Source of the DNA: a virus
IMG/VR virus record: IMGVR_UViG_3300019458_000617
Span: 1-39,341 of that record
Direction: 5' to 3' (one strand)
Length of the DNA stretch: 39,341 nt
The number at the start of each line of letters is the position of its first letter. The stretch's first letter is position 1. Below, in pieces: positions 8,466 to 35,827 of the stretch. Made by a program: the position numbers and the translations under genes. Under the pieces are notes generated by a model that worked only from the letters and a program-made list of their open reading frames with translations, ran no database searches and had not been told where the DNA came from.

Positions 8466-9443
8466 ATGGCCGATACAGAGTTCCTAACTGGAGCCGCCGA
8501 GACGGTCAAGCGGTGGGCCAAGGAGCTGTGGACCGAGGCCCCGGAGCTCATCTACTGGGGCCAGTTCATGCAGGAATCCGCGAATGCGATCATCCAGGTC
8601 AAGCGCGACTTCGAAGGGCAGGCTGGGGATGAGCTGACGTTCACCCTGCTCCGCAAGCTGATCGGTGCGGGCGTCACCGGAGACGCCGTGCTGGAAGGCA
8701 ACGAAGAGCAGATGAACCACTACTCCGACTCGATCGTCCTCGACCAGCGCCGCAACGCCGTGCGCCTCAAGGGGCGGCTATCCGAGCGGCGTACCGCGTT
8801 CAACCAGCGAAACAGCGCGAAGGACGTGCTCAAGACTTGGCTGGCGGAGACGATCGACGACGACATCTTCACCCAGTTCGACACCAACCCGACCTCGGTG
8901 ATCTTCGGGGCCGGGGCCACCAGCACCGCGACCATCCTCAACACCAGCACCATGACGCTCGCCCTGATCGACCAGGCCGTCGCGAGAGCCAAGAAGGCCT
9001 CGCCCAAGATCTGGCCGGTACGGGTGGAGGGCCGCGACTACTACGTCGTCTGCATGCATACCGACGTGGAGTTCGACCTCCGGCAGTCCAACGCCTGGCA
9101 GAACTTCCAGCAGAACGCCGGCCCGCGGGACTACGGGGACAACGCGATTTTCGTGGGCGGGATGTCCGTCTACGGGGGCGCGGTACTGCACAGCCATACC
9201 AAGATTCCCATCGCCACCGACTGGGGGGCCGGGGCGAGTGACACCGGAGCCTCCAATTTCTTCCTCGGCCGACAGGCTGGCCTCTTCGGCTGGGGTGCCC
9301 GACCGGAGTGGTGGGAGAAGGAGTTCGACTACAACAACCGCGTCGGGTTCGCCATCGGCGCCATCTGGGACTTCACCAAGGCGGTGTTCAATGCGACGGA
9401 TCACGGGTTCATCGCCATCCGGACTTACCGGACAAACAACTAG
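8466..9443 (+). CDS. Major capsid protein, N4-gp56 family (325 aa)
   Basis: The translation fits the N4-gp56 (DUF4043) major capsid family. An N-terminal helical segment (VKRWAKELWTEAPELIYWGQ) is followed by an E-loop-like stretch (QAGDELTFTLLRKL), a Tyr-Ser-Asp/His and Arg-rich region (LDQRRNAVRLKGRLSERRTA) and a conserved WEKEFDYNNRVGFAIGAIWD stretch near the C-terminus. The start is ATG 8466 with AGAGGAG about ten bases upstream. It follows the scaffold gene and ends in TAG. The protein forms the HK97-fold shell. No protease is visible nearby, so processing is uncertain. Confidence 0.92.
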   Translation: MADTEFLTGAAETVKRWAKELWTEAPELIYWGQFMQESANAIIQVKRDFEGQAGDELTFTLLRKLIGAGVTGDAVLEGNEEQMNHYSDSIVLDQRRNAVRLKGRLSERRTAFNQRNSAKDVLKTWLAETIDDDIFTQFDTNPTSVIFGAGATSTATILNTSTMTLALIDQAVARAKKASPKIWPVRVEGRDYYVVCMHTDVEFDLRQSNAWQNFQQNAGPRDYGDNAIFVGGMSVYGGAVLHSHTKIPIATDWGAGASDTGASNFFLGRQAGLFGWGARPEWWEKEFDYNNRVGFAIGAIWDFTKAVFNATDHGFIAIRTYRTNN

Positions 9444-9477
9444 GGGCGGCGAGAGCCGACAAGGAGGCATGACACCC

Positions 9478-10413
9478 ATGAACAAGCGCTTCCGCGGGAT
9501 CCTCGCCGCCATCGTGGCGATCACCATGGCCGGTGTCCTGGCCTGGCCGATCGTCATGGCGGCCCAGACGAGAGAGTCGGGACAGCCCGGCTACTACTAC
9601 TTCTTTCAGATCGTGAACGAGAACGACCAGCCCTTCACCGATGCGGGGTTCGTCAACTGCTCGATCTACCGGTACGGCGCCAACGGGTCGATCAATACGA
9701 TCGTCCACAGCGCTGCGTCGTTGGCGAACGGGACCGGTCTCGCCGGTCCGCTGTACAGCAATTCCAACGGGATCATCCACTGGTACTCTGGCACCACGAC
9801 CCCAGTGGACGTCGTCTGCTTCACCAAGGGTGGTGACTCGGGCCGCAAGGTCCGTATGGCGATCACCGACCACCGGCTCCGGATCAGCACGACCGGGGCG
9901 CAGAAAGTGGTGCGCTTCCCCTTCAGCACCAACACCGGGGTCACCGCGACCGGCCTCTACATTCCGCAGGGTGCGGTAGTCCAGAGTGTTGCGGTCAACG
10001 TGGCCACGCCGGGCGCGACCGTCGGGCATATCGACGTAGGCTTCGGCGGCAACCACGCCTTCGCGGTGCGCAACGCACTCGCCGATCGGCTCCAGCTGGG
10101 GCCGAACACCACCACCGCCGCCGCTGGCTTCAACACGTTCCTGGACCCGACGGGCACGGTCGGCGCGACGTGGCCTGGCATCGGTGGTGTCCAGTCCGTT
10201 CCCAGGACCCACATGGGCGTGCTGCTCAAGCACATCAACATCGCCACGGGTGGCGCGAACTCCGGCACCTACAACGGCGGGGTCATGGTCCACACCACAG
10301 GTGGCCTCGAGCTCACCTACGATACCTCCAACGTGGGCAGCATGGGCGGACACGTGTACGTGTTCTTCCAGTTGATCCACGTGGGCAGCACGGTACACGG
10401 GCCGGGGTACTAG
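9478..10413 (+). CDS. Probable capsid decoration or fibre protein with N-terminal export signal
   Basis: I chose ATG 9478, which has AAGGAGG at 9461-9467. The in-frame ATG at 9469 is too close to that site. Residues 1-28 look like a Sec signal peptide or anchor: a basic start (MNKRFR), a hydrophobic core (GILAAIVAITMAGVLAWPIV) and then MAAQ. The remaining ~280 residues are Gly/Thr/Asn-rich, strongly beta-predicted, and contain 11 His. Cys are few. It directly follows the major capsid gene, where decoration proteins and head fibres are often encoded. An export signal in such a protein is unusual. Function is inferred only from position and composition. Confidence 0.7.
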   Translation: MNKRFRGILAAIVAITMAGVLAWPIVMAAQTRESGQPGYYYFFQIVNENDQPFTDAGFVNCSIYRYGANGSINTIVHSAASLANGTGLAGPLYSNSNGIIHWYSGTTTPVDVVCFTKGGDSGRKVRMAITDHRLRISTTGAQKVVRFPFSTNTGVTATGLYIPQGAVVQSVAVNVATPGATVGHIDVGFGGNHAFAVRNALADRLQLGPNTTTAAAGFNTFLDPTGTVGATWPGIGGVQSVPRTHMGVLLKHINIATGGANSGTYNGGVMVHTTGGLELTYDTSNVGSMGGHVYVFFQLIHVGSTVHGPGY

Positions 10414-10433
10414 GCCCGTTCAGTGAGTACACC

Positions 10434-10465
10434 GGGGGTGGGGTCGCCATCGGGGCCCCACCCCC
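10434..10465 (+). terminator. Perfect 10-bp GC hairpin after the capsid genes
   Basis: GGGGGTGGGG (10434-10443) pairs with CCCCACCCCC (10456-10465) around a 12-base loop, 20 bases after the preceding stop codon. The hairpin is very stable but is not followed by a run of T (only a short ATTCCCC follows), so termination may be partial or of another kind. It separates the capsid genes from the envelope-modification cassette. Confidence 0.6.
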
Positions 10466-10487
10466 ATTCCCCTGTTCAGGAGGCGAC

Positions 10488-11150
10488 GTGACCGGACGGT
10501 TCCTCGGCATCGCGGTCGACAACGACTCTGGGTCCATGTTCCACAATCTATTTGCCCGCCAGGCAGGCAGCGAGCAGATCGCCAGTCCCTTTGCCCTCGC
10601 GGTCCTGGCCGGGCTCTTCTGGCGTTTCCTGCCGCCCAAGGCGCTGGAGGTAGGAGCCGGCATCGGGACCATGACCGCCCTGCTGTGCTGGCGCGGGGTC
10701 GAGATCGACTATGTGGAAGACAGCGTATGGTGCCGGGAGCGGCTCCGCGCGATGCTGCCCTACCGGGGCATCCAAGAACTCCGGACGGCGTCATTGGTGC
10801 CCACCTATCCGTTGGCCGTGATCGACGGCGACCAGTTGCCCGCCGGGCAAGTCGTCCCGATGCTTCTCCGCGGGGCGTGGATCTTCGTCGAGGGCAACCG
10901 CCGCCGATGGCGGGCGGATTTGGCCCACTACTGCCGCATCACCAGACGCGGGGTCGCCGCAGTCCATCTCCGTCCTTTCGACCGGAGCAAGGGGGTCTGG
11001 CTGATCCAGTTGGACCCGACGGTCGGCTGGCGCCTGCGGTTCGCCCTCGAGCGCGGCTGGCAGGCCGTGCTGACCGGCGCCTCCCGCGCCTGGTCCTGGC
11101 TGACCGGCTCCACCTACTACCGCGGCAAGCGCCGCCAGGTGCCCGCATGA
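10488..11150 (+). CDS. Rossmann-fold, SAM methyltransferase-like protein (220 aa)
   Basis: The preferred start is GTG 10488, four bases after AGGAGG (10478-10483). The frame extends upstream, but that stretch overlaps the previous gene. Residues 54-60 show a motif-I-like E-x-G-x-G-x-G (ALEVGAGIGTMT). Next come an acidic end of strand 2 (DYVED) and a motif-IV-like segment (LAVIDGDQLP). A hydrophobic strand (GAWIFVEGNRRRW) follows, and the C-terminus is basic. This is the layout of class I SAM-dependent methyltransferases. The substrate is unknown. Its stop overlaps the next start (ATGA), pairing it with a polysaccharide-polymerase-like membrane protein, so it may modify sugars or lipids of the host envelope, which is speculation. 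Confidence 0.65.
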   Translation: MTGRFLGIAVDNDSGSMFHNLFARQAGSEQIASPFALAVLAGLFWRFLPPKALEVGAGIGTMTALLCWRGVEIDYVEDSVWCRERLRAMLPYRGIQELRTASLVPTYPLAVIDGDQLPAGQVVPMLLRGAWIFVEGNRRRWRADLAHYCRITRRGVAAVHLRPFDRSKGVWLIQLDPTVGWRLRFALERGWQAVLTGASRAWSWLTGSTYYRGKRRQVPA

Positions 11151-12385
11151 TCCGCTTCCTCGACCGTCTCGCCTCGCCGATCCCAGCCCAGCGCATCCCG
11201 TGGATCTGGGTGTTCCTCGCTATCGCTATCGCCGCTCCATTCCCGGCCTTCGGCTGGTCGCTGCCGGAGCGCGCGGTCCCGATCATGTGGCTCATGCTCG
11301 GTGGCTTCGCCGCCCTCTGTGCGCTGGTCTGTCGGGTGAGCATCCCCTTCGCCGCCATCCTGGCTTGGTCGGTGGTCCGCGCCGGCTACCACGGCTTCCC
11401 TGAGCGCAGCCTCAAGGTGCTGGCCCTGATGCTGATGGCGGCCATGCTCTACGTGCTCGCCCGTGAGGCCTCTGACGCCATGTCCCGCACGGTTGCCGTG
11501 GCCTTCTGTATCGGGGCCGGCTGGGAGGGCCTGCTTGGGTTAGTCAATGCCTTCGGGGTATATCCGTGGATGGCGGTGGTGATGGCCGAGCACGTGGGCA
11601 AGCCGATGGGGTTCCTGACCCACCCGAACTACTGGGGCAGTTTCATGGCCTTGAGCCTCCCGATCGTCTGGTCGGTGGCGGGCATCCCGGCGGCCACGCT
11701 GGTCTACCTGCTCATCCTGAAGACCGTGTCCGCCGGCCCGGTCATCTCGGCAACCGCCGGGATCCTCATCATGGCCTGGCCGTTATTCGGAGCCCGGGTC
11801 CGCGGCGCCGTGGCCGTGGCCGGTACCACCGGAGTCCTCGGCACGATGATCCTCCACGAGTTCCGCCTGAGCGGGCGGTGGGAAGTCTGGATGAAGGCGC
11901 TGCCCGAGTATCTCCGGTGGCCCGTACTCGGGCAGGGGATCGGCCAGTGGCGGACCTGGGCCGAGGACTGGGATGCGGTGCACTACGCCCCCCAAGCCGG
12001 GAAGACCTTCCTCGTCACGCTCCAGGCCCACAACGAGCCCTTCCAGCTGCTCTTCGAGCTCGGCCTCATCGGCTTCGCCTTCGGATTGCTGTGGGCTGGG
12101 CAGGCCGGCCTCGCGGCCGTGCGCGTGTGGCGCGCGGCTCCAGTCGCCATGATCCCGGCCCCCTGGTACGCCTGGGGCCGCGCCCCGCTCGAGCGCGCGT
12201 GGATCGCCGTGGTGGCGATCGCGCTCGTCAACAGCCTAGGGAGCCCAGTCTTTCACTTGCCGGGGCAGGCCGCCCTGGTCATCTTCGCCTTGGCCCGTCT
12301 GCAAGCGGATGCTGAGGCCCTGACGCCGATGGCGCAGGAAACCATCACCGAGAGGAGCGAGGACCATGCCAGTCGTAGCCAGTAA
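11147..12385 (+). CDS. O-antigen ligase/polymerase-like multi-spanning membrane protein (412 aa)
   Basis: The start is ATG 11147, overlapping the methyltransferase-like gene's stop. The protein has about ten hydrophobic segments and three blocks typical of the Wzy/WaaL (O-antigen ligase) superfamily. They are a THPNYWGSFMAL block near residue 155, an SGRWEVWMKALPEY block followed by LGQGIGQW near 242, and an AHNEPFQLLFELGLIGF block near 294. Such proteins polymerise or ligate surface glycans in the inner membrane, acting in the periplasm. In a phage, this suggests alteration of host surface polysaccharide, for example to block superinfection or release virions from decoy receptors. It lies inside the capsid-tail operon, which is odd, and its GC is like its neighbours. 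Family membership is likely; exact role is inferred. Confidence 0.78.
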   Translation: MIRFLDRLASPIPAQRIPWIWVFLAIAIAAPFPAFGWSLPERAVPIMWLMLGGFAALCALVCRVSIPFAAILAWSVVRAGYHGFPERSLKVLALMLMAAMLYVLAREASDAMSRTVAVAFCIGAGWEGLLGLVNAFGVYPWMAVVMAEHVGKPMGFLTHPNYWGSFMALSLPIVWSVAGIPAATLVYLLILKTVSAGPVISATAGILIMAWPLFGARVRGAVAVAGTTGVLGTMILHEFRLSGRWEVWMKALPEYLRWPVLGQGIGQWRTWAEDWDAVHYAPQAGKTFLVTLQAHNEPFQLLFELGLIGFAFGLLWAGQAGLAAVRVWRAAPVAMIPAPWYAWGRAPLERAWIAVVAIALVNSLGSPVFHLPGQAALVIFALARLQADAEALTPMAQETITERSEDHASRSQ

Positions 12386-12878
12386 GGCCCCCCTGATGCA
12401 GGAGATCGAACTCAGCGAAAACATCATGCGGCCGGAGGCCCCGATCGTGAAGTGCCGGATCGTCTACATGGGCAACAACCGGAATAGGTCGGTATGCCTG
12501 CCCGGCCAGCTCCAGATCCAGCACATCCAGACCGGTACCGATAAGGACGGCGAGCCGGTCAGCGAGACGATCAAGTCCGCGATCGACGAAGGCATGCAGA
12601 CCTACGACTTCTCAAGCCACGACTCCCGCGGGCGGCTGATCGAGGCACGACTGATGCCGGACACAGCCGGCAAGGAACTCGCCGGCAAGCCGTTCGCCTA
12701 CTCCGAGCACCTCGGTCACATCCGGCACTTCTATCTCGAGAAGACCGCCGACGGGGCCAAGGAGTTCAAGGTCCTCGCGGAGAAGAAGGATCAGCACGTC
12801 ATCCAGGACTACGTCCGGCAGTTCATCAGCCGCCAGCAACGGGACGAGAAGGACCTCGCCGAGGTCGCGAGCTCGTAG
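12366..12878 (+). CDS. Hypothetical virion-region protein (170 aa)
   Basis: The start is ATG 12366, with GAGAGGAG nearby upstream, overlapping the end of the previous gene by 20 bases. The protein is soluble-looking and moderately charged, with beta-rich first half and a helical, charged C-terminus (QDYVRQFISRQQRDEKDLAE). No recognised domain is seen. It sits after the envelope cassette and before the head-tail adaptor, so it could be a small head-completion component. I do not assign a function. Confidence 0.7.
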   Translation: MPVVASKAPLMQEIELSENIMRPEAPIVKCRIVYMGNNRNRSVCLPGQLQIQHIQTGTDKDGEPVSETIKSAIDEGMQTYDFSSHDSRGRLIEARLMPDTAGKELAGKPFAYSEHLGHIRHFYLEKTADGAKEFKVLAEKKDQHVIQDYVRQFISRQQRDEKDLAEVASS

Positions 12879-12917
12879 GACCACCATCCACCAACCACTG
12901 AGAGGGGGGACTGAGCC

Positions 12918-13175
12918 ATGAAGGATAAGGGAGGAAGCGAGGGGGCGAAGTGCCCGGAACCGGTCGATCCGATGTTCGCGCCCTCTGGGGAGCCACAGGT
13001 CCTGAATCGGGAAGGGGCAGGGGCCATGACCGGCAACAGCGACGAGGGCGGCAAGGCGCTCGCCGAGTTCGCCGGTCTGGGCAAGGGCACCAAATCCTCG
13101 AGCGTCATGGGCTCTGGCAAAGCCACCATCACCGCAGAAGGCGGACCGGGCGGAGGCTACACCACCAAGCAGTAG
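12918..13175 (+). CDS. Small Gly/Lys-rich hypothetical protein (85 aa)
   Basis: The start ATG 12918 follows GAGAGGGGGG and the string CTGAGCC. The 85-residue product is Gly/Lys/Ser-rich, lacks hydrophobic stretches and is probably disordered. Nothing identifies its function. It ends TAG at 13175. The 80 bases that follow contain a weak GC-rich inverted repeat but no clear terminator. Confidence 0.6.
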   Translation: MKDKGGSEGAKCPEPVDPMFAPSGEPQVLNREGAGAMTGNSDEGGKALAEFAGLGKGTKSSSVMGSGKATITAEGGPGGGYTTKQ

Positions 13176-13255
13176 GAAGCTGAGGTTCTGCTAGCGCGGT
13201 AGCGGTCTCGGGGGCGAGTGGGGCGCCCTCTCACGCTTGATGGGAGGGCTGAGCC

Positions 13256-14125
13256 ATCTCGAATTTTGACTCGTTTTCGGATGTGGTCGCGGACGTGCTC
13301 GAGCGGGGCGATGAGCTCACGGACGGCACGAGCGATTGGGATGCCGCCACGCGGCGGGCCATTGTCCGTGCGTTCCACTTTTTCCACAACAGCCATCCGT
13401 TTTGGTGGAACGAGTCCGCCTCGCCCGGCGTCTTCCTGACCGTCGCCCCGATCACCAACCGCACCATCACGCTCGCCGCGGCCGGGACCAGCGTGGCTGC
13501 GACCCTCTCCTCGGCTGTCACCGCCGACCTCGTCGGCTACAAGATCATCCCGAGCGGGAAGGATTACTCCCTGCGGATCACCGTGCATGGCGGGGGCACG
13601 GCCGCCATCACCGTCGACGCCGCCACGGAGGCCCTCGCCGCCGGCACCGTCATCACCATCGTTAAGGACGAGTACGACCTCGTCTCGACCCTGGGGATGT
13701 TCGTCGACGGCCTCTGGACCGGGGACGGCGACTTCATCACCCTCCGGAGCGAGGACTATCTGCGGCGGAACTATTCGGACCCTCCTCAGCAGCAGTGGCC
13801 GCCCGACTGCTTCAGTCGGCTGACCAAGCGGAAGATCCGCCTCTCTGGGTATCCAGACGCCGTGCACCGAATCGAGTACCCCTATACCACGATGCCGGCC
13901 GACCCGTCTGGATCGGGTGACCTCGTGATCGACCAAAACTTCCGCTGGGTGCTGGCCGACGGCGGGCTCTACTTCCTGCACCTGTTCAAATCCGACAAGC
14001 GCGCGGAGGCCGCCCGCACCCTCTTCGAGCAGGGCATCGGGCAGGCCATCGTCTACCACCACCGGATGAAGGTCGGGCTCAACAATACCGGGCAGGAAGC
14101 GACCGTGGGGCCCTACGCGCTATGA
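13256..14125 (+). CDS. Probable head-tail adaptor protein with possible ATC start
   Basis: The frame opens after TGA 13250-13252. The best-placed codon behind GGGAGGG (13242-13248) is ATC 13256, and the local string CTGAGCCAT is the same as before the ATG of the upstream gene. Starting there yields an N-terminus SNFDSFSDVVADVLERGDEL. Without it, the first usual start is GTG 13283, which has no ribosome site. The 289-residue product has a helical N-terminal region (ATRRAIVRAFHFF) like podovirus connector/adaptor proteins, a beta-rich insert (~60-130) and a helical C-terminus. Its place before the nozzle protein fits an adaptor. The ATC start could be genuine, a mutation or an error. Confidence 0.72.
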   Translation: MSNFDSFSDVVADVLERGDELTDGTSDWDAATRRAIVRAFHFFHNSHPFWWNESASPGVFLTVAPITNRTITLAAAGTSVAATLSSAVTADLVGYKIIPSGKDYSLRITVHGGGTAAITVDAATEALAAGTVITIVKDEYDLVSTLGMFVDGLWTGDGDFITLRSEDYLRRNYSDPPQQQWPPDCFSRLTKRKIRLSGYPDAVHRIEYPYTTMPADPSGSGDLVIDQNFRWVLADGGLYFLHLFKSDKRAEAARTLFEQGIGQAIVYHHRMKVGLNNTGQEATVGPYAL

Positions 14126-14152
14126 AGCAGTGGCGGTCCAGATAGGTCCCCT

Positions 14153-15727
14153 ATGGCCTACGACGGAGTGACAGTAGTAGAGGTCGTCGCGGGTAGGGAG
14201 GCACTCTGGGGAATCAGAAACAGGAATCTGATTCCACTCGGAGGCCTCATCGAGTTTCGGAACGCGACCCTCGAGGACTACACCTGGCGCACCGGTGGCG
14301 GCGCGTCGAAGCTGGGGTCTGCCTTCGATGCGGCCCGGACGGGCAAGGTGGCGTTCAACTTCTGGCCGGATGCCGACACCGAGCGCAACGTGGTGATTGA
14401 CGACGCAGGCCAGATCTGGAAGGACAACGGCTCCGGCGGGGGCTGGACTCTGCTCCACACCTTGGCGACCACGTCGGGGTTCCACCCATTCCTAGTACCT
14501 GGGGCTGCGGAATCCAGCGGGAGCAATCGCAAATTGTTCTATTTCGACGGGCGGAATGACCCGCGGTATCTCGATGGCGATGGGGCGGCCATGACAGCGC
14601 TGGCCTCACCAGCCGCCGACTGGACTGCGGGGAATGTCAACCGGCAGCCGAGCTTCGCTGTTCCGCACCAGGGTTATATGTGGGCGGGAGGCAACCCGAA
14701 CGCGCCCAACCGGATCTATCGGTCGACCTTGGCCGATCAGACCTCCTTCGGCGGAAGCCCGTACAGTCTGCCGGTGTTCCCGGGCTTGCGGCAACGGCTC
14801 GTGGGTGGGCTCTCCTACAAGGGCGTGCTGCTGCTCTGGGCCTACCCCTCGGGACTCTACGCCGTCGATACCTCGGATCCCTCGGACGCCAACTGGCGCG
14901 TGATCCAGGTCGGCTCGCCCGGCGCGGCCGGCCCGATGAACATGTCGCCGATCGAGGACGACATCATGTGGGTGTCACCCGACGGCTCCTGGCACCTGGT
15001 CTCTGCGACCACCGCCACCGGGTCCGTCCGGGCCGAGGATCTCACCTCCCGCAAGCTCGGTTCCTACGTGCGCGAGCAGGTCAACCTCGGGCAGCTGGTC
15101 GATGCCCAGATGCTCTACTACTCCAACAAGCAGGAGATCATGCTGGCGTGCGCCGGCCAAGGCCAGACGGCCAAAACCCGGCGGCTACACATGGACCTCA
15201 ACAAGCGCTCGGAGGTGGGCGAGCGCTGGCTCTGGTGGGACCGTGACCAGAACGAGGCCATTTTCCTCCGCAAGATTGACGAAGTGATGACGCCGGCCAT
15301 GGTCGACAACGTCGGCCAATTGTGGCTGCTCGATCGCTCCGCCCGGAACAAGGACGGGTCCGGCTACCAGTTCTCCTGGTTCCTCAAGCCCTCAGATTTC
15401 TCCGAGGTCATCCCGGGCTGGCAGGGTCGCCGGAAGAACCTCCGCTTCATCCAACTCGAATACGATGCCCGTTCGGCTGCGACCCACACGATCGAGGTCT
15501 ACTCCGACGGCAACCTGATCCAGACCATGACCTTCAGCCTGACGGGATCTGGGGCGACCCTTCCCGCCATCCTGCCCTTCACGCTCGGCACGGAGACCCT
15601 GCTCGTGACCCAGCGCAAGCGCATGACCGGCCAAGCCGTGCGCCTCGGGATCCGCGGGTATACCAACGTCGCAAATGCCGATGTATCGATCAGCCGAATC
15701 CTCATCGGTCTCGAAGTGGCTGAGTAG
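14153..15727 (+). CDS. Tail nozzle / DNA stabilisation protein, P22 gp10-like (524 aa)
   Basis: ATG 14153 is the start. The protein is strongly beta-rich with repeated aromatic turns (for example GGGASKLGSAFDAA, FYFDGRNDPRYLDGDG, GLYAVDTS, WLLDRSA), as expected of a propeller-like nozzle such as the P22 stabilisation protein or podovirus tail tubular proteins. The C-terminal ~150 residues form a separate beta region. It follows the adaptor gene and precedes tail fibre genes, which is the usual order. The assignment is by fold-like pattern and synteny, not by a sequence search. It ends in TAG at 15727, just before the HNH gene on the other strand. Confidence 0.72.
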   Translation: MAYDGVTVVEVVAGREALWGIRNRNLIPLGGLIEFRNATLEDYTWRTGGGASKLGSAFDAARTGKVAFNFWPDADTERNVVIDDAGQIWKDNGSGGGWTLLHTLATTSGFHPFLVPGAAESSGSNRKLFYFDGRNDPRYLDGDGAAMTALASPAADWTAGNVNRQPSFAVPHQGYMWAGGNPNAPNRIYRSTLADQTSFGGSPYSLPVFPGLRQRLVGGLSYKGVLLLWAYPSGLYAVDTSDPSDANWRVIQVGSPGAAGPMNMSPIEDDIMWVSPDGSWHLVSATTATGSVRAEDLTSRKLGSYVREQVNLGQLVDAQMLYYSNKQEIMLACAGQGQTAKTRRLHMDLNKRSEVGERWLWWDRDQNEAIFLRKIDEVMTPAMVDNVGQLWLLDRSARNKDGSGYQFSWFLKPSDFSEVIPGWQGRRKNLRFIQLEYDARSAATHTIEVYSDGNLIQTMTFSLTGSGATLPAILPFTLGTETLLVTQRKRMTGQAVRLGIRGYTNVANADVSISRILIGLEVAE

Positions 15728-26546: not shown

Positions 26547-26779
26547 GGATCAAACCGCTCCGGCATGACGATGTTATCTCCCTTGAGCGGGTGGTGGTGT
26601 TGGAGCCAGCCGACGAGGACGAGGATATGGCCACCGCGAGTGGCGAACTCGATCACGGCACCTACGCCATCGACAGCCTCGGGCGGGTATGGAGACAGGT
26701 CGAGACCGTGAGCGGGTTGATGCGGGAGTTCACCGAGTCGGACGGCGTCAAAAGACGCCGGGCCAAGCGGGCCAGCTGA
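26543..26779 (+). CDS. Small charged hypothetical protein (78 aa)
   Basis: ATG 26543 overlaps the preceding stop. The product is acidic in the middle (EPADEDEDMATASGELDHG) and basic at the end (KRRRAKRAS). A short beta-like YAIDSLGRVWRQVE segment may fold. Stop TGA overlaps the ATG of the giant gene (TGATG), so it probably couples to it. No family is recognised. Confidence 0.6.
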   Translation: MRIKPLRHDDVISLERVVVLEPADEDEDMATASGELDHGTYAIDSLGRVWRQVETVSGLMREFTESDGVKRRRAKRAS

Positions 26780-29700
26780 TGAGCCTCGAGAGTTTACTCG
26801 ACGAAGCATTCCCGGCCTTGAAGGCCGAGACCCCCACCGCGCCCCCGGTGGCGAAGACCACTGGCGGCGGGGTGAACGCGCTTGTCGACGAGGCCTTCGG
26901 GGACGCACCGGCTCCGCAGCCGGAGCCGCCAGGGTTTCTCTCGCGCGCCGCCTCGGCTGTGACCTCGGCTGTCACAGGGTTGCTCCCAGGTGGGCCGACC
27001 GTCGGCTTCAAAGCTGCGGGGCCAGCCATCGCGCCGGACGCGGCGACACCACCGAAGAGCATGGCTCTGCCACAGGTGCCGAGCGATGAGGACCTGAAGG
27101 CCACCCGGTCTTCAGCGGCAATCCCAGAGCCCAAGGCCCCGGCCCCCCCACCGGTGCCCATCAAGATCGGGCCGGTGGCTGGGTTCGGGCCCGCCGTTGA
27201 GGAGGTTCGCCGGGCACCACTGCTCGAGCAGGTCGGTGGCCCACAACGCTCCGAGGTCTTCAAGTCAGAGCCGGTGAAGCCAGCCGGGATGCTCGCCCGC
27301 GGGGCTGCTGCGGCTGGCGTGGTCAACCCGGAAGCGGCCGACCAGCGCCGGATGGAGGCGGAATTCGCCGCCACCTCGGTCATGCGGAAGCCGGAGGGCA
27401 TGTCTGAAGAGCGATGGCAGGTGCGGCAGGCGCTTGAGACCCTGAACCGCACCACCGCGGCGCTGCCGCGGGCGACCGCTGATCGACTAACCTTCGGAAT
27501 GCTGCCGGCCCTGCTGGACACGTTCGGGATCGAGTCGCCCAAGACCCGGGCTCCAAGAAGTCAGCCGGAGGCACTGGCGGCTGGGGCGGGCGAGCTCGCC
27601 GGATTCATCCTGGGCCCGGCCCGAGCGTCCCATGCGATGCTCGAGTCCAACATCCTGAAGTGGATCGGTCCGAAGGCCGGGGACGCCGTCGGCACCATTC
27701 TCGCCAAGAATGTCGCTACCCAGGCGGCGAATCTCGGCGTGGCCAGCGGGATCGCCCATCTCGGTGAGGAAGCCCAAGCAGACACCTTAGCCGACGCCTA
27801 TCGGGAGATGGGCCAGCACGTCAAGGGTGGAGCCATGCTCGGCGCCGCCTTCGGGGTGACCGGTGGTGTGATTCCTGGGAACCAACTCCTCCCGCGGGCG
27901 GCGCGCCTTGGGGTGGGACTCACCGCGATCGACGCCGCACAGGGTACCCGTCTGCTGGACGAACGGGTTCTGTCCCAGAAGGCGTTCGACTACGGACTGA
28001 ACATCGCCTTCCTGTGGCGGGGGCAGGATCCACGGGCGATGAAGCAGCTCCTCGAGGCCGAGGCCAAAGCTCGGAACACTACCCCGGAAGGCCTCCTCAA
28101 GAGCGTCCTCGACAAGGCGATGGAGCGCGCGGCCAAGGCGACCCCAGAGGACCGGACCACGCTTGAGGCCGACCTGAAGAATCTCTTCGCCCAGGAGGTA
28201 GGCGATGTAGCCACCGGGACCACGGCGACAGAGCTCCGGTCTGCACGTGATGTCGCCGAGCAGAAGACCGGTGGAACCATCGAGGCACGGATCCGGCTGG
28301 TTCCGCCAGCCCCACGTCCGACACCGCTGCTCGGCCCGCCGGTCATCCTAGGGCCAACTGGCCGGCCATTAGAGCGCCCAGAGACACCCGCGCCGGAGCC
28401 CGGAGCCATGCCGACGGCCCAGGAGCTGGCCGCCGCGCGGGCACGGGGGATCGTATCACCGGAGGTGCCAGCGCCCCAACCAGCCCCCGCAGCGGCCCCG
28501 GTCAAGGCGGAAATCGGCGGGGCGACGAAGCTGGGCGACCTCACTTTCCGGGACTACGTCCAGGCCGCCGGCCGGAAGTGGCCACTCACCTCGCGCGACC
28601 CGGACTTCGCCCGTCTCCGGTTCGAGTTCGACGATCTGCGGAAGGGGCTCTACGAGGCCAAACCCGGGATCGGCGGGCAGTGGGTGATCGTCAACCGGAA
28701 GACTGGCGAGGAGGTCGACCATCTGGTCGGCGGGGCCAAGGCGCAGCTGGAGGCCAATCGGCTTAATGCCGTCGTCACCCTGGACAAATGGCGCGAGGCC
28801 GGTCTGCCGACAGGGGCCCCGCACGCGCCAGCCGCGCAACAGACCGCCCCCGTCGAATTCCAGGGGCTCCAAGAGACAGGCCGTGGCAAGCCGCCGATGG
28901 AGCTCTGGGGGCTCACGCAGGACATTCCCGGGTATCCGAAGGGATCAACGGTCGGTCGGTCAACCCTTGAGGCGCTCGGCTTCACGGTGCCACGCATCCC
29001 GGCTGGAGCCCAAATCGGAGTCCGACCAAGTGACCTGTCCGCGAAGAAGGCCCCAGAGCCGACGGTAGAGGGGGCAGCAGCCGCGCAGCAGCAAGCCGAG
29101 CAGGCCATCCTCGAGGGGCCGAAGCCGAGCGCCGAGCCACCCAAGGACGCGCCAGTCCAGGCCCCGCCACCGGCGGCGGCGGCCGTCGGCAAAAGTCAAG
29201 ATCTCAGAGTCCCGGCGGGGAGCCGGTATCGGGTCAAATACGAGCTCGTGGACGCGACGGATCTCATCCCGTCCCACGATCCGAAGAGCTTCGCGCGAGA
29301 CCCGCGCTATCCAGAAGGAGTCCAGAACCGGCCTTACCATTCCGACAAGAGCGAGCAGGCGAAGGTCATCCGACAGAGCCAGGATTTTGAGCCGGACTTC
29401 CTCTTGAGCGAGCGGCCCACTTCACAGGGCAGCCCCATCCTCGCGCCCGATTCCAACGTGGTGCTATCCGGGAACAGCCGAAGCATGACCATGATGCGAT
29501 TGGCTGGCACCGAGGCGTTCCGGCCCTACCGGGAGCGCCTGCGCGAGCGGGCGGTTCAGTTCGGTTTCCGCCCTGAGGATATCGACCGTGTCCCGAATCC
29601 CGTATTGGTGCGCCGCCTGGTGGGGAGCGACACCACGCCGGAATTCTACCGGCGGTTCGCCAAGGAGGCGAACGAGAGTTTCACGCAGGCCCTCAACCCA

Positions 29701-32700
29701 CAGGCCCAGGCCGTGAGCCAGGGGCAAGCCGTGAAGCCGGAGACGATGGAGTGGATCGCCGGGCAGGTCGATGCCCTCGGCGAGACTGCCACGCTCCGCG
29801 AGTTCCTCCGCTCCGGTCTGGACCGGGAGATCATCCGGCGCTTCATCCAGGATGGCGTCTTCACCGAGCGTGATCTGAACCGCTACATCGACCCGCGCAC
29901 AACGCAACTGAACGAGGACGGCAAGCGCCTCGTCGAGCGCGCTGTCCTCGGCAACGCGATCCCAGATCCGGACCTACTGAACCAGATTCCCTCTGCGGTC
30001 AGCGCCAAGATCGAGCGGAGTCTCGGGGCGCTGGCGAAAATCAAAGGCCGTGGCGGGGAATGGGATCTCGGTAAGGACCTCGAGGATGCTGTCCGCGTCG
30101 TCATCGAAGTCCAGGCGACAGGGTCGGGATCGGTCGGCGGGTTGCGTCAACAGGGCTCGCTGCTCGAGGGGGCGGGGCCGAGCACCAAAGCCGATACCCT
30201 AGCCGATGCGCTCCTGCGCCTCAAGCCGAACGAGTTCCGGGCGGCAATCAACCGATACGCTGATGCCGCCCAGCGAGATGTGCGCGGGCAGGAGACGCTC
30301 GGGTTCGCCAGGCCAGCGTCGCCGGCCGCTGCGTTCCGTGAGGCGTTTCAGGGCGGGCCGGAGCCCGGACCACAGCGCCCGCGGCTGCGCGCCGCTGAGG
30401 AGTCGGCCCAGTACAGCACGGCCAAGCCCGAGGGGACACCCTACGACACCCCGGAAGTGGTGGCCCTCCGGGCCGAGCAGGCGGCGGTGCCGGCCACCGA
30501 CCATTACATCCAGTCTCGGCCTGCGGAACGCGAGGGGCTCTGGAGACGGGTTGCCGCGAAACTCCGCCAGACCACCACGGACAACGTGCCGGTCCAGCAG
30601 GGCAAGCAGATCTGGATTGTCATGGGTCCCCCGGCGGCCGGGAAGAGCAAGGTATTGGTCAACCGCATCTCCGCGCGGGAAGGGGCGGCGATCATCGACT
30701 CCGATATCGCGAAGTTGGAGATCCCGGAGTCTGGGCGTGGTCGCTACAACGGCGCGGTGCACCAGGAATCCGTGGCCATCATGGAGCGGGCGCTCGTGGA
30801 GGCGATGGAGGCCGGCGACAATATCGTGCTCCCGGTGGTCGGCAAGGGATGGAAGACGCTAGCGGATAACTACATTGCGGCCGCACGGGACCATGGCTAC
30901 CGTATCAACCTGCGGCTGATGGACCTCCCGGTCGAGGAAGCCGCCCGGCGAGCGGTGAGCCGTGTCACCGAGCAGGTTCGCCGTGGCGGCGATGTGCAGT
31001 TCGTGGACCCAGGGTACGTCTTGGAGATTGGTGAGCGGCCACGCGAGAACTATGCTAGGCTGGTATCCGAAGGGAGGGTTGATAGCAATGAAGCCTTCAG
31101 CAACGATGTCCCCTTCGGATCCACGCCACGCCGTCTCTCCGACGCCGACCTCGGCATTACCCGTCCCCAAGATGGGCAGCGAGGAGTACTTCCGCCTGAT
31201 GGGGGAATTTCTCCAGGAGCGGAAGGCCCAAGTTCCGAACGAGTGGCCGGAGGACGCGACCGACGCCTGGGGCGATCACTACTCGGCTCTGAAGGAGGGC
31301 CGACCGGCGTCGGACCAACCGAACGCCCAGCCGTAACCCGCCCGGAGGCGGCTCCGCCTCCCGACTACGATCTTCCTCCAGTCAGCCTAGCCGAAGCGGC
31401 TGAAGCTGGCGGTGCGCGCGGCATGGCCCGCACCGCCGGTGGGATCGCCATGCGTCTGCTCAGGGGCGTCGAAGAGCCGGCTAAATCCGAAGAGTTGTCG
31501 GTCCTCGCCGACGGGGCGACCATCTACGGCAAGGTCAAAGCCCGCAAGGGCGCGACGACCGCCGACCGTGACGCCGCCCAAATGGCGCTCTTCGACCTCG
31601 AGGAGACGGCCAAGCAGCCAACCGAGACCGTGGGCAAGACCATTCGTGGTGAAGATGCCGGCGCCGGTGTCAGGACCGTCCAGCGCTTCATCGACCCGAT
31701 CAAGGACAAGGGTTTCGTCGACCTCCGCGGCGAGAAGGTCGAGTCGGCCCAGGATCTGGCCGTCCTCGGCCAGACGCTCCGGGACCCGCGCTACGAGACA
31801 CTCCGGGTGTTCTACACCAAGGGCAACGAGGTCGTCGGAATGGAGGCAGTGACGAGCCGGCTCCCAGGTACCGCGATGTTCATGGAGGGACCGGCGAAAG
31901 GGAGCGCCACAGAACTGCGGGAGCGCCGCAGCCGGTGGGCTTATGAGGTGCGGGAGCGCATGCGCCGCCTCGAGGCCGACGGGTACTACCTCATGCACAA
32001 TCATCCGTCCGGACGACCGGAGCCGAGCCGGGCAGATCTAGATCTCACCCAGGACATCGCCAGTCGCGTGCCTGGCTTCAAGACGCACGTGGTCATCAAC
32101 TCGGGTCAGTATGGGTTGATCGAGATGAAACCAGCGAGCGAGCAGCGCAACACGTTGATCGCAGTTGAGGCCATCAAGGAACTCCCTGGTCGCGGCCGGG
32201 CGAAGGACGACGAGTTCCTCTCCCGAGTGCGGCACACCATCACCAACCCGGAGCAACTAGCCTTTTTCGGCAAGACCCTCCAAGTCCCCGAGAACGCCGT
32301 GGCTTTGATCTACCGCGACTCGTCAGGCTACGTGCGGGCGGTGCAGGAAATGCCGCGCGGGCTGTTCATGCGGCCCAAGGAAATGGCCGACTTTCTCCGC
32401 GGCCAGCAGCGGGCCTTCGGGGCCCGTGACGTGATGGCGTGGTTCAAGCCTGACGAGGCTACCCTGAAGCAGGCCAGGGAATACATCGCCAGCGGCGTAC
32501 TGATGGACGCGATGGCCCCCGGCTGGGCGGCCCGGGAGAGCCTGAAGACCACCGCGCCCTTCGCTCGCACCCTCGAGACGACGGGGATCGTGCGCGGGAT
32601 CCGTGTCCAAGAGGCAGGGGCCCCCTACGGCGACTTCGACAGGCTCCCCGAGGAGACCCGACGGAAGTTGGTCGAGTACGGCCGCGGGGTGCTGGCCGAC

Positions 32701-35085
32701 GGGAAGACCGACTTCGCCTCATGGGCCAAGGCCATCAGAGACCGGGTCGGCGAAGGCGTCTCGGGTTCGCTGCCTGGTGCGTGGGCCGCACTCATGCAGG
32801 AGGCGGCGCGGACTCAGCGTCCGATGCCCGGCGAGCAACAGGCCGGCGGTAAGCCGCCAGCGCCGCCGAAGGACATTCCACAGAGCGCCAAGCCGCTCGA
32901 CCCGGCCCCGGGGCTGACCGAACCCCAGTTGAAACTCGGGGTACACAAGGATGTGCTGGCCGCAGCCGAGGACCTGTTCAAGGCTGGCAAGTTGATCCGG
33001 GACCCGAAGATGCTGCTCTCGGACCAGATCCTCGACGCCATCCGCGAGGGGAAGCTTCGGATCGAGGACATGGCGAGTACGCTGGACCGGCACGGGATGA
33101 CCTTCAGCGAGTTCGGTCAGTCGATGTTCCGGCCGGCGATCACCGATGCCGCGCGCCGACTGGCCGCGTTGTCGACCCTCCAGAAGCGTATCCGCGACCT
33201 CGAGGTCGAGCTCGGCGGGCCAGAGCCACCAGGCGGCAAGAAGGGTGGTCCGGGCGGCAAGAAGGGTGGTCCAGAGCTGGAGGAGCGGATCAAGACTCTT
33301 GGCGATCTGCTGGATGCCGCCAAGGCGATCGACCCGGCCGCCGTCAAGGCGCTGTCTTGGTGGCGCCGGGCCGACAACATCCGCCGCGGTCTGCTCGTTA
33401 CCCAGCTGGCCACCAGCGTCCGGAACTTCAGCACCCAGGTCGGTCGACTCGGGATTGACGTGCTTGACCAAGGACTCCAGGGGGCGCTCCAGCGGGCGTT
33501 CGGCAAGGAAGTCACGGCCCATCCGGCCGACTCCTTCCGGGCCCTCATGGAAGCCCTGTCGCAGGTCAGGCCGTCGAAGCATAAGGCAGTGCGGGATCGG
33601 GTTGACGCCATTCTTGAGGGGCTCCCGCGCGAACAGGAGCGGCTCTTCAACAACTACGCCTCAGACCTGACCCGGGCCGCGAAATTACAGGGTGCAGAGC
33701 GGGCGGTGGACAAGGTCCTCACGGGTGGCGAGCAGGCCGTCGAGCTTTTGAATACGGTCAACCGGTTCCAGGAGTACGTGGTCCGCCGGTCGGTGTTCCA
33801 GGCTGAGCTCGCCGGCCGCCTGCGTGCCCGCGGCATCGACATCGAGCAGGCGATCAAGGACCCGGACATGCGGCGGGCGATCCCGGTGTCGGACATCCGT
33901 GCCGCCATCCAGAAGGCCCTGGAGATTACTTTCGCGGAAAATCCGGCCTATGGATCGCCTGGGTATCATTTCGTGAAATGGGTAAACCAGACGCCGGGGC
34001 TCACGTTCATGACGCCGTTCCCGCGCTTCATGGTGAACAGCCTAAAGTTCTTCTATGAGTTCAGCCCGCTCGGGTTCACCAAGCTCCTGTCCAAGATTGA
34101 GCGCCAGAAGTTCCGGCAGGGCGACATGCAGACCATCAGCCGGGCCACGCTCGGGATGGCGCTGCTCGGGACAGCCTACCTCATCCGATCGATGCAGGAG
34201 GATGACACCAAGTGGTACGAGGTCAGGTTGCCCGGCATGGAACGCACGCTCGACACGCGGGCCTACAACCCGTTCGCGGCCTATCTCTTCGTCGCCGACC
34301 TGATCCACCGGTCAGCGCAGGGACGGCTCTTCGGGGGCGGGCTGACGGCCGAAGCGGTAAAGACTTTCTTCGGCGCCAACGTCCGCGGTGGCACGGGCCT
34401 CCAGGCCGTCGATCAGCTGGTGGACGGCCTCAGAGACATCGGCGACACCCGGGCCCTCACCAAATACCTCCAGGGCGCCGGAGGGCACCTAGTCGCTGGC
34501 CTGCTGACCCCGCTCCAACAGTTGACCGACGTGTATGCCCAGTTCGACCCAGAAAGCCAGGTCGTTCGGGACTCCAAGTCAGAGCCCTTCCTCGGGCCGA
34601 TCAAGCAGCGTTTCCCCTCTACCGTGGTAGAGCAATTGGGTGGTGAGCTCCCAGAGCCGAAAGCCAGCCCAACAGCCGCAGAGCCGGTCAAACGGGAGTC
34701 GCCGGGCCTACGGCAGGTTTTCGGTCTCACCCTCGGCAAGGAGAAGAACGACCTCGAGAAGGAACTCGATCGCCTCCAGATCCCCTACCGAGAGGTGTTG
34801 CCGAGCCAGGGCGACCCGCGACTGGACAACATCCTCGCGAAGCACATGGGGGCCGAGGCCGAGGAAGTCGGAGGCCGCATCGTCAACTCGGCCAGGTACC
34901 AGAGGCTCGGCGACATCGGCAAGCGGCTAGAACTCAAGCACTATCTAAGCCGGCTTCGGAAGAAGGCGAAGGTCAAGGCGCTCCAGGATCGGGACTATCG
35001 CGAGATCTCTCAGGAGGTCAAGGCTGGGACCTCCAAGGAAAGGCTGGCAGAGATGGCTCGAGAAGAGCGCGCAGGACTCCGATGA
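26779..35085 (+). CDS. Giant polyvalent ejection protein: ParB-like, Zeta-like, JAB-like and virion domains (2768 aa)
   Basis: Start ATG 26779 overlaps the upstream stop. Repeated LLDEAFPAL/LVDEAFGDA motifs open the N-terminal linker. Residues ~812-1170 resemble the DdrB/ParB-like polyvalent-protein domain (LIPSHDPKSF, LSGNSRSMTMMRL). A Zeta-toxin/kinase-like region follows, with Walker A GPPAAGKS at 1283-1290 and a downstream IIDSD stretch. A RadC/JAB-like metallopeptidase site lies at HNHPSGRPEPSRAD (1740-1753). From ~2190 the sequence is virion-like (RGLLVTQLATSVRNFSTQVG, then a hydrophobic GMALLGTAYLIRSM stretch). Such polyvalent proteins are thought to enter the host with DNA and act against host defences or replication. 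Residues ~1437-1520 coincide with a nested ORF and have atypical composition. Confidence 0.88.
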   Translation: MSLESLLDEAFPALKAETPTAPPVAKTTGGGVNALVDEAFGDAPAPQPEPPGFLSRAASAVTSAVTGLLPGGPTVGFKAAGPAIAPDAATPPKSMALPQVPSDEDLKATRSSAAIPEPKAPAPPPVPIKIGPVAGFGPAVEEVRRAPLLEQVGGPQRSEVFKSEPVKPAGMLARGAAAAGVVNPEAADQRRMEAEFAATSVMRKPEGMSEERWQVRQALETLNRTTAALPRATADRLTFGMLPALLDTFGIESPKTRAPRSQPEALAAGAGELAGFILGPARASHAMLESNILKWIGPKAGDAVGTILAKNVATQAANLGVASGIAHLGEEAQADTLADAYREMGQHVKGGAMLGAAFGVTGGVIPGNQLLPRAARLGVGLTAIDAAQGTRLLDERVLSQKAFDYGLNIAFLWRGQDPRAMKQLLEAEAKARNTTPEGLLKSVLDKAMERAAKATPEDRTTLEADLKNLFAQEVGDVATGTTATELRSARDVAEQKTGGTIEARIRLVPPAPRPTPLLGPPVILGPTGRPLERPETPAPEPGAMPTAQELAAARARGIVSPEVPAPQPAPAAAPVKAEIGGATKLGDLTFRDYVQAAGRKWPLTSRDPDFARLRFEFDDLRKGLYEAKPGIGGQWVIVNRKTGEEVDHLVGGAKAQLEANRLNAVVTLDKWREAGLPTGAPHAPAAQQTAPVEFQGLQETGRGKPPMELWGLTQDIPGYPKGSTVGRSTLEALGFTVPRIPAGAQIGVRPSDLSAKKAPEPTVEGAAAAQQQAEQAILEGPKPSAEPPKDAPVQAPPPAAAAVGKSQDLRVPAGSRYRVKYELVDATDLIPSHDPKSFARDPRYPEGVQNRPYHSDKSEQAKVIRQSQDFEPDFLLSERPTSQGSPILAPDSNVVLSGNSRSMTMMRLAGTEAFRPYRERLRERAVQFGFRPEDIDRVPNPVLVRRLVGSDTTPEFYRRFAKEANESFTQALNPQAQAVSQGQAVKPETMEWIAGQVDALGETATLREFLRSGLDREIIRRFIQDGVFTERDLNRYIDPRTTQLNEDGKRLVERAVLGNAIPDPDLLNQIPSAVSAKIERSLGALAKIKGRGGEWDLGKDLEDAVRVVIEVQATGSGSVGGLRQQGSLLEGAGPSTKADTLADALLRLKPNEFRAAINRYADAAQRDVRGQETLGFARPASPAAAFREAFQGGPEPGPQRPRLRAAEESAQYSTAKPEGTPYDTPEVVALRAEQAAVPATDHYIQSRPAEREGLWRRVAAKLRQTTTDNVPVQQGKQIWIVMGPPAAGKSKVLVNRISAREGAAIIDSDIAKLEIPESGRGRYNGAVHQESVAIMERALVEAMEAGDNIVLPVVGKGWKTLADNYIAAARDHGYRINLRLMDLPVEEAARRAVSRVTEQVRRGGDVQFVDPGYVLEIGERPRENYARLVSEGRVDSNEAFSNDVPFGSTPRRLSDADLGITRPQDGQRGVLPPDGGISPGAEGPSSERVAGGRDRRLGRSLLGSEGGPTGVGPTERPAVTRPEAAPPPDYDLPPVSLAEAAEAGGARGMARTAGGIAMRLLRGVEEPAKSEELSVLADGATIYGKVKARKGATTADRDAAQMALFDLEETAKQPTETVGKTIRGEDAGAGVRTVQRFIDPIKDKGFVDLRGEKVESAQDLAVLGQTLRDPRYETLRVFYTKGNEVVGMEAVTSRLPGTAMFMEGPAKGSATELRERRSRWAYEVRERMRRLEADGYYLMHNHPSGRPEPSRADLDLTQDIASRVPGFKTHVVINSGQYGLIEMKPASEQRNTLIAVEAIKELPGRGRAKDDEFLSRVRHTITNPEQLAFFGKTLQVPENAVALIYRDSSGYVRAVQEMPRGLFMRPKEMADFLRGQQRAFGARDVMAWFKPDEATLKQAREYIASGVLMDAMAPGWAARESLKTTAPFARTLETTGIVRGIRVQEAGAPYGDFDRLPEETRRKLVEYGRGVLADGKTDFASWAKAIRDRVGEGVSGSLPGAWAALMQEAARTQRPMPGEQQAGGKPPAPPKDIPQSAKPLDPAPGLTEPQLKLGVHKDVLAAAEDLFKAGKLIRDPKMLLSDQILDAIREGKLRIEDMASTLDRHGMTFSEFGQSMFRPAITDAARRLAALSTLQKRIRDLEVELGGPEPPGGKKGGPGGKKGGPELEERIKTLGDLLDAAKAIDPAAVKALSWWRRADNIRRGLLVTQLATSVRNFSTQVGRLGIDVLDQGLQGALQRAFGKEVTAHPADSFRALMEALSQVRPSKHKAVRDRVDAILEGLPREQERLFNNYASDLTRAAKLQGAERAVDKVLTGGEQAVELLNTVNRFQEYVVRRSVFQAELAGRLRARGIDIEQAIKDPDMRRAIPVSDIRAAIQKALEITFAENPAYGSPGYHFVKWVNQTPGLTFMTPFPRFMVNSLKFFYEFSPLGFTKLLSKIERQKFRQGDMQTISRATLGMALLGTAYLIRSMQEDDTKWYEVRLPGMERTLDTRAYNPFAAYLFVADLIHRSAQGRLFGGGLTAEAVKTFFGANVRGGTGLQAVDQLVDGLRDIGDTRALTKYLQGAGGHLVAGLLTPLQQLTDVYAQFDPESQVVRDSKSEPFLGPIKQRFPSTVVEQLGGELPEPKASPTAAEPVKRESPGLRQVFGLTLGKEKNDLEKELDRLQIPYREVLPSQGDPRLDNILAKHMGAEAEEVGGRIVNSARYQRLGDIGKRLELKHYLSRLRKKAKVKALQDRDYREISQEVKAGTSKERLAEMAREERAGLR
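31088..31336 (+). CDS. Nested ORF in another frame inside the polyvalent gene (82 aa)
   Basis: ATG 31088 is preceded by GGGAGGG (31072-31078) with nine-base spacing, one of the best ribosome sites in the window. The frame (+1 relative to the giant gene) ends TAA 31336. It encodes a normal-looking small acidic protein with helical MGSEEYFRLMGEFLQERKAQ and DATDAWGDHYSALKEG stretches. From ~31160 onward its codons show the high third-position GC typical of this genome. The giant gene's own frame there has many A/T third positions and a Gly/Arg/Pro-rich translation. It lies between the Zeta-like and JAB-like domains. It may be a real overlapping gene, or a segment displaced by two compensating indels. 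No homology is claimed. Confidence 0.6.
   Translation: MKPSATMSPSDPRHAVSPTPTSALPVPKMGSEEYFRLMGEFLQERKAQVPNEWPEDATDAWGDHYSALKEGRPASDQPNAQP
33229..33270 (+). repeat. Two 21-bp tandem repeats encoding PGGKKGG
   Basis: Two units of CCA/CCG-GGC-GGC-AAG-AAG-GGT-GGT lie in frame in a linker of the polyvalent protein, differing by one base. They make a flexible Lys/Gly linker just after the region of the JAB-like domain and before the virion-like C-terminal part. They probably mark a domain junction. Confidence 0.7.
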
Positions 35086-35363
35086 CCTACAACGGCAGCA
35101 ATGGTGGCCCCTGGTGGATCCGGCTACTCGTGTCGAGCGCAGCCCCCACGGTACTGCTGGCCGCCGTTCTCGGACTGATCCCTGGGGTGCGGTCGGCCCT
35201 CGACCAGCGCGAGAGCTTTGCTGCGCACCGGATCGAGACCCGTCGGCTGATCGAAGTCTACGAGCTCACATGTCGAGGGGTTTGGCGAGGCGAGGCCGCC
35301 CGTCAGGAGGATTGCAGTCGTGCCGCCCGGGGGCTGCTCCGGGAGCAACAGGACAACCCATGA
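35082..35363 (+). CDS. Single-pass membrane protein, spanin- or holin-like (93 aa)
   Basis: ATG 35082 overlaps the giant gene's stop (ATGA). Residues ~12-34 are a hydrophobic span (WIRLLVSSAAPTVLLAAVLG), followed by a charged, probably helical region with several Arg and Glu. This is the usual layout of an i-spanin or small holin. The next gene is a lytic transglycosylase, overlapping by ATGA, which supports a lysis role. Two Cys occur in the helical part. The exact class cannot be told. Confidence 0.65.
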   Translation: MTYNGSNGGPWWIRLLVSSAAPTVLLAAVLGLIPGVRSALDQRESFAAHRIETRRLIEVYELTCRGVWRGEAARQEDCSRAARGLLREQQDNP

Positions 35364-35827
35364 ATCCACGGGATCGGTTCGACTCTCTCATTGCGTTCTA
35401 CTGCGAGAATGGCCGGAAGGGCGACGGCCCGTTCATCCCGCGTGACCCTACGGTCCCGTTCGACATCATCAAGCGGCAGTTGCTTCAGGAATCGAACGCT
35501 GATCCGGACGCGGTGAGCCGGGTGGGGGCGAAGGGCCTCGCCCAGGCCATGGACGCGACCTTCGCCGAGTGGGTACGGAACGAATTCGGCGGCGACCCGC
35601 CACCGCGCCGGCACATCTCCGCCTTCGACCCCGAGGACGCTATCCATTTCCAATGCGATTTCATGGGCTGGCTGCTGGGGATGTTCAAGGGCGATACCCG
35701 CAAGGCGCTGGCCGCCTACAACGCCGGCCCCGGGCGCGTGGGCCGGCTCGTCAAGGAGCACGGCGCGCAGTGGGAGGCGCATCTCCCGGATGAAACCATC
35801 GACTATCTACGGAAAATACTCGGGTAA
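35360..35827 (+). CDS. Lytic transglycosylase, SLT-like (155 aa)
   Basis: ATG 35360 overlaps the upstream stop. An earlier in-frame start is inside that gene and is rejected. The protein has the SLT pattern: catalytic Glu44 in QLLQESNADP, then GAKGLAQAM (residues ~56-64), a helical block, and the terminal AAYNAGPGRV motif near residue 120. It would cleave peptidoglycan, either for virion entry or in lysis. It lacks a signal peptide, so a virion location or delivery through a membrane partner is required. The ORF ends TAA at 35827, just before a promoter. Confidence 0.85.
   Translation: MNPRDRFDSLIAFYCENGRKGDGPFIPRDPTVPFDIIKRQLLQESNADPDAVSRVGAKGLAQAMDATFAEWVRNEFGGDPPPRRHISAFDPEDAIHFQCDFMGWLLGMFKGDTRKALAAYNAGPGRVGRLVKEHGAQWEAHLPDETIDYLRKILG

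Follow-up and report, generated by a model that had tools for sequence, protein, structure and literature searches.

A gene nested out of frame at the end of the zeta-like kinase domain of a phage polyvalent protein gene: a putative antitoxin partner with counterparts in other viruses

Introduction

A conserved gene can lie wholly inside another one, as Rz1 lies within Rz of phage lambda, where it is read in the +1 frame. The nested gene described here differs from Rz1/Rz in function and family; its outer protein is a conflict effector, and whether such a gene is nested within or only overlaps its neighbour varies from lineage to lineage.

AvrRxo1:Arc1 consists of a kinase with the zeta fold and a small helical antitoxin encoded downstream of it (PMC4938570). 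Like this pair, the phage locus combines a zeta-fold kinase with a small gene read right after it, and the helical products are similar in size. It differs in that the partner overlaps the kinase gene or sits wholly inside it, and in that the phage kinase is one domain of a polyvalent protein. The epsilon/zeta and PezAT systems have the kinase domain in common with the phage locus; in sequence and in structure, the phage domain comes closest to 1gvn and 2p5t. However, the classical antitoxin is encoded upstream and belongs to another family, whereas the phage partner lies downstream, overlaps the kinase in the +1 frame, and matches no antitoxin family of the epsilon/PezA type or any other. In the Rpn system, the product of an internal gene neutralises the toxin (PMC10327210). 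The phage locus is likewise intragenic, its small product being made from an internal start, but the small Rpn protein is an in-frame C-terminal piece of the toxin, whereas the phage product is read in the +1 frame and is unrelated to the kinase.

Zeta-like kinases and RelA/SpoT domains are both listed among the domains of polyvalent proteins (PMC5512222), and the large protein studied here is of that kind, combining ParB-like, zeta-like and JAB domains in one phage product. In a text search of that paper, zeta was named once, and neither a nested gene nor an antitoxin for zeta was mentioned.

Results

The outer gene and its zeta-like kinase domain

The window, which is the whole stretch of 39,341 nucleotides analysed (IMG/VR virus record IMGVR_UViG_3300019458_000617), carries a large gene with the following domains:

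26689 to 35085, plus strand: large polyvalent gene, 2798 aa, with ddrB-ParB, zeta kinase and RadC/JAB domains (Pfam)
29215 to 29619, plus strand: ddrB-like ParB domain in the large frame (Pfam PF18763, E 2.9e-19)
30589 to 31173, plus strand: zeta-toxin-like kinase domain in the large frame (Pfam PF06414, E 3.8e-9; Walker A GPPAAGKS, DSD)
31945 to 32064, plus strand: RadC-like JAB motif region in the large frame, downstream of the exchanged block described below (Pfam PF04002, E 3.9e-7)

With several conflict-related domains (ddrB-ParB, Zeta_toxin and RadC/JAB) in one phage protein, the product fits what Iyer et al. 2017 (PMC5512222) call a polyvalent protein. Judging from this family and from the late structural neighbourhood of the gene, it is probably delivered by the virion. 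The listed start is probably too early, and the true start is probably ATG 26779 (MSLESLLDE...), because this codon shares an ATGA with the stop codon of the ORF before it and because homology to a related phage, G004, points to it. In the G004 ORF, periodicity is that of a wrong frame over roughly the first 110 residues. Directly downstream of the polyvalent gene lies an ORF with a Transglycosylase SLT domain (35114-35827; PF01464, E 4.6e-18), and the record begins with a 1421-residue ORF (1-4266) that has no Pfam or PHROG match.

The Zeta_toxin match of the kinase domain is above the Pfam cut-off, and both the Walker A motif and the catalytic Asp are present. At profile level, the zeta family is related to the zeta toxin of pSM19035 (1gvn, E 1e-9) and to PezT. 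When the zeta segment was modelled with AlphaFold2, pLDDT was about 90 over residues 11-200 and the model was confident until about residue 200 (position 31170); the large-frame reading of the stretch that follows reached a pLDDT of only 41-53. In a Foldseek search, the best match of the zeta model was the 1gvn zeta (E 8.2e-9), with PezT and AvrRxo1 also found and AvrRxo1-ORF1:ORF2 complexes at ranks 7 and 10-12. The predicted zeta fold stops where the coding signal of a second, smaller frame starts.

A second gene begins within the last part of the zeta domain

The features of this smaller frame are as follows:

31072 to 31078, plus strand: Shine-Dalgarno (SD) site GGGAGGG of the nested gene (-11.8 kcal/mol with the anti-SD)
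31088 to 31336, plus strand: nested gene, 82 aa (MKPSATMSPSDP...SDQPNAQP), in the +1 frame of the 26689-35085 gene; putative zeta partner/antitoxin
31088 to 31168, plus strand: double-coding overlap, with the zeta-domain C-terminus in frame 0 and the small-protein N-terminus in the +1 frame (codon tests)
31169 to 31333, plus strand: small-frame-only codon use (codon tests); the large-frame reading is a Gly/Arg/Pro-rich disordered linker (AlphaFold2 pLDDT 41-53)

The nested frame is open from ATG 31088 to the TAA at 31334-31336. GGGAGGG is separated from the ATG by nine bases, as the initial annotation of this DNA had reported together with the 82-residue frame, and the site ranks strongest among those of the 35 out-of-frame ATGs of the large gene.

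That annotation had also stated that the small frame carries the codon pattern of the genome while the large frame is abnormal there, and had proposed codon-position GC and synonymous-site analysis as checks. Both bore it out. Within the nested stretch, GC by codon position is 0.78/0.65/0.52 in the large frame and 0.65/0.52/0.79 in the small frame. In sliding windows, third-position GC of the large gene is high throughout except in this stretch (GC3 ~0.5), where the +1 frame takes the normal pattern. Under a codon model trained on the main genes of the window, the small frame scored +0.16 over the ORF and the large frame -0.11; another forward frame outscored a gene's own frame in 0 of 2469 82-codon windows of the main genes. 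The synonymous-codon test over the last 55 codons gave z = -5.04 for the large frame and z = +0.82 for the small frame, the lowest value in 48 other windows of the large gene being -2.37.

Over the first 27 codons of the nested ORF the large frame is the normal one, and its codon use is also normal in both flanks of the nested stretch. Those first codons are normal in the large frame because the end of zeta is encoded there. The part that belongs to the small gene alone is thus about 31169-31333, with true double coding at 31088-31168.

Openness of the +1 frame was rejected as evidence for the nested gene in the window, as the frame would be open by chance with P = 0.53 given the large-frame protein (synonymous shuffling); the corresponding values in several AT-richer lineages were 0.0005-0.02. 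The weight of the window case is thus on codon use, the ribosome site and comparison. Taken together, these strongly support the view, already put forward in the initial annotation, that a genuine second gene, with a start of its own, is nested in another frame of the polyvalent gene.

The kinase domain and the nested gene were exchanged as a unit

When the zeta-JAB segment of the large gene was used as a search query, no close viral relative was retrieved. Two relatives, G003 and G004, were located via the major head protein and the ParB part. The large protein of G004 is the same protein as that of the window, with 49-61% identity by segment, except for one block:

29743 to 31336, plus strand: exchanged block, containing zeta and the nested gene in this phage and a RelA/SpoT domain in G004

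Protein homology between G004 and the window breaks at 29742 and returns at 31321, and DNA homology returns at about 31358, i.e., homology returns at the stop of the nested gene. Between the breakpoints G004 has a RelA/SpoT domain (PF04607, E 6.5e-11; about aa 1110-1381 of the ORF at 7217-15463 of locus L014), and no nested-gene signal was seen in this replaced slot. By this comparison, zeta and the small gene were swapped together, in an exchange of effector domains inside one polyvalent gene. The initial annotation had tied the small gene to the neighbouring Zeta-like or JAB-like domain. The link to zeta is supported, as the ORF follows zeta in about 20 lineages with varied flanks and was replaced together with it in G004. 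That the JAB part was kept in G004 without them argues against a link to JAB.

In the other relative, G003, the polyvalent ORF has at least 4365 residues (L018 1-13104, open at the start of the locus; 4889 aa in the record) and its JAB region in common with the window. Before the JAB part, GC is mildly shifted in G003, and no convincing ORF was seen there.

The same +1 ORF recurs after zeta in divergent viruses

IMG/VR was scanned with a zeta alignment, yielding 80 loci, which together with the window and haloviruses make up 22 lineages at 60% zeta identity. The same SD-led +1 ORF, starting inside the end of the zeta domain, is found in about 20 divergent viral lineages, including bacterial and archaeal viruses and, among the latter, cultured haloviruses. 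Downstream of zeta, 79 of 81 loci, belonging to 20 of 21 lineages, have a +1 frame that stays open for at least 55 codons; for the +2 frame the counts are 14 of 81 loci and 6 of 21 lineages. The nested ATG is often within codons of the conserved zeta motif DG[YFH], where GAT GGC is read as ATG GCx. The +1 ATG has an SD of -5 kcal/mol or stronger before it in 19 of 19 usable representatives of the lineages versus 39% of controls scored under the same best-of-several rule (p = 5e-8), so that an SD and an ATG of its own accompany the ORF in the window and in all of these representatives. The coding GC signature rotates to the +1 frame in nearly every GC-rich lineage, L020 being the exception.

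By locus, 76 were called nested, 14 overlapping and 8 absent; at least five of the overlapping calls are doubtful (L072, L074, L178, L179 and L089) and the loci are redundant, so lineage counts are safer. No such ORF was found at the zeta-like genes of cyanophage PSS2, a Bacteroides phage and L105-L107, and the small partner is therefore common but not obligatory for zeta-like genes. In the deposited annotations of the published haloviruses examined, the nested gene is unlisted, because gene callers discard ORFs inside another gene.

Substitutions in relatives follow the nested frame

When the cultured haloviruses HVTV-1 and HCTV-5 are compared, the zeta domain has 4, 5 and 40 differences at large-frame codon positions 1, 2 and 3. 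The counts for the 32-codon nested core are 9, 1 and 1, so that 9 of 11 fall on nested-frame third positions; after the core they are 19, 17 and 34, with the large-frame third position leading again. The halovirus nested ORF lies at L003 2126-2263. The patterns of the nested core and zeta differ with p = 1.2e-6 (Fisher). The nested peptide is identical at 30 of 32 residues, compared with 21 of 32 in the large-frame reading.

The marine lineage L029 flips in the same way: by nested-frame position, substitution rates over the final third of the nested ORF are 0.094, 0.118 and 0.265; zeta has rates of 0.144, 0.106 and 0.348 by large-frame position, and the first third of the nested ORF shows the zeta-frame pattern. 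In L025 and L057 both frames appear constrained. As judged from these substitution patterns, purifying selection acts on the nested frame in relatives, and the coding signal in the alternative frame thus appears both in the codon tests of the window and in the substitution and GC patterns of relatives.

Overlapping and free-standing forms

The small gene is not always confined to the kinase gene. The zeta ORF of L195-L197 stops short, so that the folding, helical part of the small protein (FDYDAAEDRGEAMAKTAVH...) lies beyond its end; the homologous stretch of L025-type phages is wholly contained in the outer gene. Only partial overlap is seen in L184/L185, where the helical part again falls outside zeta, and in the L056/L071/L087/L088 group. 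In L104, a Rhodospirillaceae MAG, a small gene overlaps the end of zeta and a second, free-standing copy follows 27 bases downstream, the tandem copies having a dN/dS of 0.33. These overlapping forms and the free L104 copy indicate that the small gene exists in its own right. The L104 copies are at 2001-2204 and 2232-2435, the second without zeta overlap, and lie beside a transporter-like ORF. A scan with the free-standing copy yielded no more copies.

The best-sampled small family was predicted by AlphaFold2 to form a helical hairpin (pLDDT > 90, residues 31-60) with a disordered N-terminal half, which is the part overlapping zeta. Foldseek gave no match for the hairpin model. The small proteins matched no Pfam or PADLOC family, and their PHROG matches were sub-threshold only. 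The Arc1 motif KExFD(x25-27)(Y/L)ExxYY was present in 0 of 78 small ORFs and was also absent from that of the window. Divergence between lineages is strong and an alignment of the whole set contains no conserved block; we do not claim that the small proteins form one sequence family.

The initial annotation had proposed a search for the 82-residue sequence in related phages, especially as a free-standing gene. No significant sequence relative was found in phages, plasmids, viral contigs, genomes or the relatives' records, and the best phmmer match to other small ORFs was weak (E 0.027, 77-sequence set); a free-standing copy of the same kind of gene does occur, in L104. What the protein of the window has in common with the other small ORFs is position, phase and start, and its case rests on the codon evidence, the ribosome site, position, phase and exchange as a unit.

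Discussion

We favour, on balance, the reading that the nested ORF is a real, separately initiated, overlapping downstream partner of the phage zeta-like kinase and, by analogy with AvrRxo1:Arc1 (PMC4938570) and Rpn (PMC10327210), most likely a co-translated antitoxin, the function being the part that we infer. The kinase and its overlapping downstream partner gene behave as one cassette. In this phage, the frame of the polyvalent gene has run over the partner gene, leaving the partner fully nested, and its out-of-frame reading, predicted to be disordered, would link the zeta part flexibly to the JAB part. We propose that: the partner would be translated from the same late mRNA by internal initiation, next to the nascent kinase; the helical partner, acting as an antitoxin or immunity chaperone, could bind and silence the kinase in the producing cell during synthesis and packaging; and the partner would stay in that cell, while the virion would deliver the kinase without it. 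More tentatively, bacterial and archaeal tailed viruses might share unannotated out-of-frame antitoxins that are nested in, or overlap the end of, virion-delivered zeta kinases, the antidote being produced alongside the toxin through internal initiation and left behind at injection.

If the small protein is the antidote of a packaged kinase, this would explain how the toxin can be produced in bulk without killing the phage's factory. It would also provide a positional rule (an SD and ATG inside the end of zeta, +1 frame) for finding hidden partners of other polyvalent effectors. The locus further illustrates that domain shuffling can make a neighbouring gene a linker of a larger protein. Nested genes and intragenic antitoxins are known kinds, and the statement in the initial annotation that genes inside a single large effector are rarely described was too narrow in view of the Rpn intragenic antitoxins and nested phage genes. 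In the literature searched, the coverage of which was incomplete, no description was found of an unannotated out-of-frame partner of phage zeta kinases that recurs across bacterial and haloarchaeal viruses.

The small gene could instead be real and separate, yet no antitoxin: an assembly, packaging or injection chaperone, or some other late protein, that happens to follow zeta. We consider this unlikely, while regarding it as the most serious alternative. In its favour, the large gene lies in a late structural region, where it adjoins the transglycosylase ORF in the window and MuF/head-assembly genes in the haloviruses; the small proteins are very diverse without any antitoxin family match; and some zeta-like genes have no such ORF. 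On the other hand, the linkage to zeta is tight across very different large genes, the ORF was replaced together with zeta in G004, and the best structural precedent with the same gene order is a toxin-antitoxin pair (PMC4938570).

It is very improbable that the ORF is instead the product of a +1 frameshift, with slippage near the end of zeta giving the kinase an alternative C-terminus. Several loci do have a +1 frame that is already open before the ATG (from 30962 in the window), but every lineage representative has an SD before the ATG, the free-standing L104 copy lies outside the zeta gene, and a common slippery site was not seen by eye in the upstream sequences inspected.

As for an assembly error or decay, in which two compensating indels would displace the large frame over about 250 bases, the abnormal large-frame codon pattern exactly in the nested stretch speaks for such an artefact, but the comparative data refute it and we give it almost no credence. 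The same out-of-register stretch follows zeta in complete genomes of cultured haloviruses and in about 20 other lineages; the large-frame flanks are normal; the zeta fold ends and the homologous downstream part restarts without lost residues; and in other lineages the stretch is a gene of its own with its own stop. The initial annotation had named two indels, or homologues with stops in the small frame, as findings that would speak against a nested gene; both were tested and neither holds. A chance open frame in GC-rich DNA, which the 53% of synonymous randomisations with an open +1 frame in the window would allow, is just as hard to credit, since the signal is one of codon use, with a large-frame z of -5.0 and a frame reversal in 0 of 2469 windows of the main genes, and is accompanied by the substitution pattern in relatives.
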